Assembly: GCA_021829645.1 (NCBI GenBank)
Contig: JAKBPI010000006.1
Coordinates: 1-64,000 of the forward strand
Length of the DNA: 64,000 nt
Origin: Actinomycetes bacterium
GTDB lineage: Bacteria; Actinomycetota; Acidimicrobiia; Acidimicrobiales; Bog-793
Reading direction: 5' to 3'
The position numbers and the translations under genes were made by a program. Positions within the stretch are counted from its first letter, which is position 1. Each line of letters starts with the position of its first letter. The notes below the pieces were generated by a model, which was not told where the DNA came from, ran no database searches, and saw only the letters and a list, made by a program, of their open reading frames with translations. Of the stretch, positions 40,818 through 41,033 are shown piece after piece.

Positions 40818-40823
40818 TACAAT
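40818..40823 (+). promoter_or_regulatory. -10 box for the leu leader transcript
   Basis: TACAAT ends 5 bases before the first ATG of the leader peptide, so the transcript would begin at or next to that ATG (leaderless). No clear -35 is seen. Confidence 0.35.
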
Positions 40824-40828
40824 AGAAA

Positions 40829-40873
40829 ATGATGGTTATATATACAGCAGTCACCAACCTACTACTGATATAG
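40829..40873 (+). CDS. leu operon leader peptide
   Basis: A 14-codon frame beginning ATG ATG and encoding MMVIYTAVTNLLLI, then TAG. It contains Val, Ile, Val, three consecutive Leu codons (CTA CTA CTG) and a final Ile just before the stop. It is followed immediately by a strong hairpin and then a factor-independent terminator, upstream of leuA. This is the expected layout of a ribosome-sensed attenuator responding to leucine and perhaps the other branched-chain amino acids. No Shine-Dalgarno site is seen, which fits a leaderless mRNA. Confidence 0.8.
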   Translation: MMVIYTAVTNLLLI

Positions 40874-40895
40874 CGACAAAGTTACTTTGTCGCTA
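40871..40895 (+). promoter_or_regulatory. Attenuator stem 1 (pause hairpin)
   Basis: Perfect 11-base arms around a TTA loop (AGCGACAAAG pairs with CTTTGTCGCT). Its left arm contains the leader stop codon, so a ribosome stalled on the Leu codons would cover or disrupt it. Confidence 0.65.
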
Positions 40896-40925
40896 CCTCC
40901 TGTGCATTCAGCCAGGGGGTTTTTT
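40895..40925 (+). terminator. Leader (attenuator) terminator of leuA
   Basis: ACCTCCTG pairs with CAGGGGGT (8 pairs, one G-U) over a 10-base loop, followed directly by six T. A classic factor-independent terminator about 110 bases before the leuA ATG. I could not draw a clean competing antiterminator by eye. Confidence 0.75.
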
Positions 40926-41033
40926 CAATTAAAAAGGGTTTTTGATAGATGAAGATACTTATTGCGGACGAGGTGAATAAGTATTTCAAGATCAGAAAAG
41001 ATCGGTTGTAATATTTTAATAAAGCGAGGGATT

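Follow-up and report, generated by a model that had tools for sequence, protein, structure and literature searches.

Is the region in front of leuA in this acidimicrobial genome a leucine-sensing attenuator, and if so, by which step could a ribosome on a short leader peptide prevent termination? The window (the whole stretch of DNA analysed, 64,000 nt) comes from one contig of a draft genome of 2.1 Mb, and MAG contigs can be assigned wrongly. In our view, the region is likely to attenuate transcription of leuA by sensing leucine through a ribosome on a leaderless or near-leaderless leader peptide, as had been suggested in a sequence-only reading of the window. Comparison of the leader, its Leu codons, its leaderless spacing, both hairpins, their geometry and the fit of the control codons to the downstream gene argues for this reading.

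A predicted leader peptide and two hairpins in front of leuA

The features of the region are collected in Table 1. The TACAAT box, the 14-codon frame, the 11-bp hairpin, the terminator and leuA were all found where the sequence-only reading had placed them, and two of its details could be refined. The leader frame (ATG ATG GTT ATA TAT ACA GCA GTC ACC AAC CTA CTA CTG ATA TAG) had been taken to start at the first ATG, 5 nt downstream of TACAAT; that spacing stands, and the second ATG, 8 nt downstream of the box, may be the real start because the first is a TTG in the nearest relative (L003). The hairpin, called hairpin b hereafter, had been said to start at the stop codon; it does occur there, with the stop codon TAG included in its 5′ arm.

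Table 1. Features of the leader region and the genes downstream (positions in the window)
Feature	Position	Strand	Basis or remark
−10 box TACAAT	40818..40823	+	read in the sequence
Leader peptide MMVIYTAVTNLLLI	40829..40873	+	predicted; leaderless or near-leaderless; start possibly 40832
Control codons CTA CTA CTG (Leu-Leu-Leu)	40859..40867	+	Leu-Leu-Leu in 81 of 82 leuA leaders
Hairpin b, on the stop codon, proposed antiterminator	40871..40895	+	folding z and covariation
Intrinsic terminator: hairpin 40895–40920, T run 40920–40925	40895..40925	+	folding z and covariation
leuA, 2-isopropylmalate synthase, gene proposed to be regulated	41034..42722	+	NCBIfam TIGR00970, PRK03739
leuD	42752..43357	+	NCBIfam TIGR00171; 29-nt gap after leuA

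Hairpin b consists of 11 bp with the loop TTA and folds at −12.4 kcal/mol (z −5.6), a value equalled by none of 200 shuffles. The terminator (8 + 2 bp, with a single bulged U) folds at −14.9 kcal/mol (z −3.9), and the two hairpins jointly reach −27.2 kcal/mol against a shuffle mean of −11.2 (z −6.0). A40895, the last base of hairpin b, is able to close the terminator too. From the T run to leuA, which starts at 41034 or 41037, the distance is 108 nt; leuD is probably co-transcribed with leuA.

No −35 element TTGAC is visible at the window leader or in its genus (most relatives carry one), which is a point against an attenuator here. A simple promoter and terminator scan of the window detected neither TACAAT nor the bulged terminator. 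Three Leu codons directly before a stop occur in 20 cases in the six frames of the 64 kb; such a run is not rare by itself, and it is the combination of features, together with its conservation, that exceeds chance.

Most relatives have a shorter stretch between the terminator and leuA than the one found here (40926–41033). This stretch includes a 20-codon frame, which was not found in the nearest relative. The genes for both subunits of isopropylmalate isomerase are usually adjacent and in one direction; here, leuD is on the + strand after leuA and leuC is convergent, on the − strand, behind greA (42752–44786). No leader was found by eye in the greA–leuC gap.

Conservation in the Acidimicrobiia and beyond

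For the comparison, 395 genomes of the class Acidimicrobiia and 396 genomes of the phylum were sampled, both sets being draws. In leuA loci chosen by the LeuA protein alone, one layout recurs: TTGAC, about 17 nt, a −10 box, 5–10 nt, ATG or GTG, a short peptide ending in Leu-Leu-Leu and one further residue, the stop codon, a hairpin, a terminator and leuA. Those protein-picked loci that have the terminator have the Leu run as well. A covariance model that includes the Leu codons (R1; the E-values of our models are rough) matched 220 of the 395 class genomes and 50 of the 396 phylum-wide ones, a count that favours Leu codons because the model contains them. In the class, the gene downstream was leuA in every locus classified. 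The 98 copies referred to below are related sequences, partly found by a model for which 33 of them had served as training set, and their leader starts and folds are predictions.

Both hairpins covary. In 33 aligned leaders, 97.4% of the pair cells of the two hairpins are standard, and changes on both sides were seen in 14 of 21 pairs (for hairpin b, in 9 of the 10 modelled pairs). None of 500 shuffles, which do not control for relatedness, attained any of five covariation measures; sliding the partners, which does control for relatedness, lowered pairing to 37–49%. Leaders with a 2-nt shorter distance between stop and hairpin were misplaced by MAFFT (alignment A2), and A2 was left out.

These data bear on whether the leader in the window's genus could be a chance resemblance or a decayed, non-functional relic, as its absent −35 element and its spacing to leuA, longer than in most relatives, might suggest. 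However, all three species of the genus have both hairpins rebuilt by compensatory changes and retain Leu runs (CTA/CTG/CTT/TTG), and the only R1 match in the own genome, in front of leuA, has an E-value of 5.9e-12; we find chance or decay barely credible. In one relative (L050), the Leu codons, a hairpin arm and a good terminator have been lost together. Family f18 of the same order, to which L031 belongs, lacks the element. In L031, leuA is preceded by a Leu-containing frame (MSFLLDLRLLSPAA, then stop) and a different hairpin, which may be a leader of another kind.

Two distant LeuA types (about 27% identity) are located behind the same attenuator within the class, and even within one family. 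The switch was thus kept although the enzyme type differs, which suggests enzyme replacement beneath a retained switch.

A −35/−10 pair was proposed in 86 of the 98 leaders without using the start codon. Start codons located 5–10 nt past the −10 box gave 66 in-frame counts versus four out of frame, and, judged by this spacing, the leader appears to be leaderless throughout the class. The distance from the −10 box to the start site in S. lividans is 6.3 nt on average, with a range of 4–9 (PMC8079986), and leaderless leader peptides are known in S. lividans (PMC8079986) and C. glutamicum (PMC11857589).

Control codons fit the downstream gene

The Leu codons proved to be conserved when leaders from relatives were aligned, as the sequence-only reading had wished to see checked. 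Leu-Leu-Leu occurs in 81 of 82 leuA leaders, 5 of 6 leuS leaders and 1 of 19 ilvB leaders (p = 3e-17, indicative only, because the sequences are related). Outside the class, the same anatomy is found before leuS, where the leaders end in SLLLT, NLLLR, TLLLT or FLLLT, and before ilvB, where the endings are rich in Val, Leu and Ile (NLVLIT, GILVVT, LVVLVT, VLVVVT, VIVVVP and similar); the identities of the leuS and ilvB genes were confirmed for a sample.

The own genome carries a second copy, in front of ilvB (G000:C12:8328-8389, − strand; L131/L135). Its leader, MAYTARKFATLVVVI, ends in LVVVI directly before the stop and begins 6 nt past a CATAAT box, leaderless by spacing; the stop codon is at the hairpin base, and the terminator follows 3 nt on. 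A model built without the Leu codons (R2) had just two matches in the own genome, one at leuA and one at ilvB; the ilvB copy had first been spotted by reading upstream of ilvB and was part of the training set of R2. No leuS leader was found in the own genome. That the control codons of these predicted leaders match the product of the gene behind them is the best evidence for the codons being the putative sensor.

Codon choice differs between leaders and leuA genes: CTT makes up 37% of the Leu codons versus 8%, CTG 17% versus 38% and TTG 1% versus 11%. CTA, the rarest Leu codon in the window (9.7%), occurs twice in its leader. Such usage is compatible with selection, be it for codons that are read slowly or for a particular tRNA. 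Of 79 leuA leaders, 64 have Thr or Met as the residue that separates the Leu run from the stop, and 54 have CTT as their final Leu codon.

Further matches were seen in front of other genes. One R2 match (L120, G471:C78:717-783; E 9.2e-16) precedes a class-V aminotransferase gene; a short frame, VKLTRRSNK, begins 6 nt past TAGTCT and ends at the hairpin, possibly the same module sensing a different amino acid. Another (L177, G443:C75:44958-45023) lies before leuB; its leader is MSSFQVAIG, and the ilvB version occurs in that genome too. An R1 match before leuS and beside a tRNA gene (L127, in G514) was rejected as a member, since by eye it shows a T-box pattern, GGTGGTACCGCGG. R2 matches above about E 1e-6, often without any leader, are probably due to chance.

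The two hairpins adjoin and hardly share bases

The sequence-only reading had noted no clean antiterminator and doubted that the switch works in the usual way. That doubt was justified: no antiterminator by base pairing came to light in the window, in 35 leaders or in the 98 copies. Folding the window with every ribosome edge yielded no classical antiterminator, and the terminator remained the best fold under any 5′ masking up to 40895. When the 35 leaders were folded at every ribosome position, the probability of the terminator stayed above one half in 33, and the other two (L008 and L018) lost the terminator once the 5′ arm of hairpin b was masked. Among the 98 copies, native segment pairs were better than swapped ones for the two known helices only (z about −25 each).

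To our knowledge, every well-studied ribosome-mediated attenuator has been described with an antiterminator, and an overlapping one could be hidden from thermodynamic folding if it were a pseudoknot, a kinetic fold or protein-assisted; the behaviour of L008 and L018 would fit such a classical attenuator. The 33 leaders that keep the terminator, the two helices that alone beat the swaps and the sharing of at most 1 nt by the stems speak against it, and we hold it to be very unlikely.

With the stems extended outward as far as pairing allows, hairpin b and the terminator share 1 nt in 13 of the 98 copies, touch without sharing a base in 46 and are 1–5 nt apart in 39; the overlap never reaches 2 nt. 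The gap is 0 nt in 59 copies, 2–5 nt in 30 and at most 5 nt, and in all 98 copies hairpin b starts at a distance of 0–5 nt from the stop codon, measured from the first base of that codon. Forming both hairpins together costs a median of 2.3 kcal/mol by a rough measure. Hairpin b and the terminator are thermodynamically compatible, so that the proposed obstruction of the terminator by hairpin b would have to be steric or kinetic. As no antiterminator exclusive by pairing was found, we have filed the element as a variant rather than as a classical ribosome-mediated attenuator.

We also considered pairing between the Leu codons and the AGGAGG in the terminator's 3′ arm; the window's genus lacks such pairing, and it does not outperform swapped pairs. 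A frameshift that would carry the ribosome past the stop codon on starvation was judged by eye and dropped, because no single frame is open in the relatives read.

A model for leucine-dependent termination

The transcription start would coincide with the start codon of the leader or adjoin it, and the leaderless peptide would be translated by a ribosome. The leading edge of a ribosome is located about 12 nt past the first base of the A-site codon. When leucine is short, the ribosome would stall with a Leu codon in its A site; at the first of these (40859), its edge would be at about 40871, the base of hairpin b, and hairpin b would fold. When leucine is plentiful, a ribosome at the stop codon would cover the 5′ arm of hairpin b in full, from 40871 to about 40883; hairpin b would remain unfolded, and the terminator would act. 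The position of the ribosome would thus decide whether hairpin b folds.

Folded hairpin b would serve as an antiterminator by steric exclusion: with hairpin b flush against its base, the terminator could not close in the exit channel of the polymerase. Steric exclusion is proposed because hairpin b cannot exclude the terminator by pairing. The sensor and the terminator are well supported; we infer the stalling, the read-through on starvation and the abutment step. Taken by itself, the abutment step is nearly an even call, if slightly short of one, and the 2–5 nt between hairpin b and the terminator in 30 of the 98 copies count against it.

Hairpin b could instead be a pause (synchronising) hairpin, as the 1:2 hairpin of the trp leader is, which holds the polymerase until the ribosome arrives, with read-through on starvation brought about by another step. 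It is stable, located on the stop codon and expected to form behind the polymerase, and a pause-like TGYG motif occurs after it in 56 of the 98 copies (in 52, the motif is 9–14 nt past its 3′ end). However, the motif is missing in 42 copies and is in part just the conserved terminator arm; pausing also leaves antitermination unexplained and needs no flush placement of the two hairpins. We regard a pause hairpin as rather unlikely.

Extended beyond leuA, the proposed ribosome-controlled attenuator with abutting hairpins may represent a phylum-wide class in which antitermination occurs without alternative pairing and one module is reused before leuA, leuS and ilvB with swapped codons; we put this generalisation forward tentatively. 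On our main reading, a single module with interchangeable sensor codons serves three genes and offers a clean case of leaderless translation acting as a sensor. If abutment is true, the rule of two mutually exclusive folds per attenuator would be broken.

Comparison with known attenuators

The attenuator of the enterobacterial leu operon has Leu codons, an intrinsic terminator and leuA in common with the element described here; a ribosome-binding site for the leader and an overlapping 2:3 antiterminator are found only there. A search of Rfam (4227 families) gave only tRNAs in the window at the gathering cutoff, the best lax score in the element region being 19.9 bits against a cutoff of 80. 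A literature search, with subscription journals mostly outside its coverage, yielded no account of attenuators in Acidimicrobiia. This apparently class-wide RNA regulator of leucine synthesis has no description in Rfam or in the literature searched.

Like the element in front of leuA, C. glutamicum ilvBNC and the ilvB-II motif (PMC11857589, PMC10272879) combine control codons for branched-chain amino acids with a hairpin directly before an intrinsic terminator. The leader of C. glutamicum ilvBNC is leaderless, beginning 1 nt from the transcription start, and the leader described here is leaderless by spacing. The C. glutamicum system differs in its gene, in its Val/Leu/Ile codons and in a third hairpin (H1) over the leader, none being seen here. 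Its antiterminator and terminator have a trinucleotide in common where they meet (PMC11857589), whereas the two hairpins are adjacent in all 98 copies here and share 0–1 nt. Mutants of the C. glutamicum terminator were 7–8 fold up, a parallel in favour of our reading; changes confined to the antiterminator had moderate to weak effects, which counts against it (PMC11857589).

The published model of M. tuberculosis ilvB1 has the antiterminator blocked by a ribosome on the stop codon, and a short terminated RNA has been observed (PMC13236596). The logic that we propose is alike, with a stop-codon ribosome masking the antiterminator and a stalled one permitting it; the gene (ilvB) and the codons (LVVI) are different, and in that system the antiterminator and the terminator are described as excluding each other.

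The actinobacterial LEU element and Streptomyces LeuL1 (PMC1262725, PMC8079986) share leuA and a leader with a Leu run, leaderless in S. lividans, with the element described here. They differ in having a pseudoknot, with Leu codons pairing to the ribosome-binding site, and in lacking an intrinsic terminator. Could the region in the window be such an element, its Leu codons pairing with the ribosome-binding site of leuA to control translation, perhaps with the help of a protein? The identical gene and the leaderless, Leu-rich leader would fit (PMC1262725, PMC8079986). However, a covarying terminator with a U tract, which LEU elements do not have, is located between leader and leuA, and the ribosome-binding site of leuA is more than 100 nt away from the leader; we deem a LEU element highly improbable. 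Leader-codon mutations in front of S. coelicolor leuA are cited in PMC1262725 as not behaving as in classical attenuation, which counts against our reading. The Streptomyces leuS attenuator LeuL2 (PMC1262725, PMC8079986) likewise has a leaderless Leu leader followed by a hairpin and a U stretch; it precedes leuS instead of leuA, and a classical antiterminator is predicted there.

As far as we have searched, the logic of the sensor and the terminator was known from these systems; a class-wide form in front of leuA, and hairpins that are anchored on the stop codon and strictly avoid overlap, are new.
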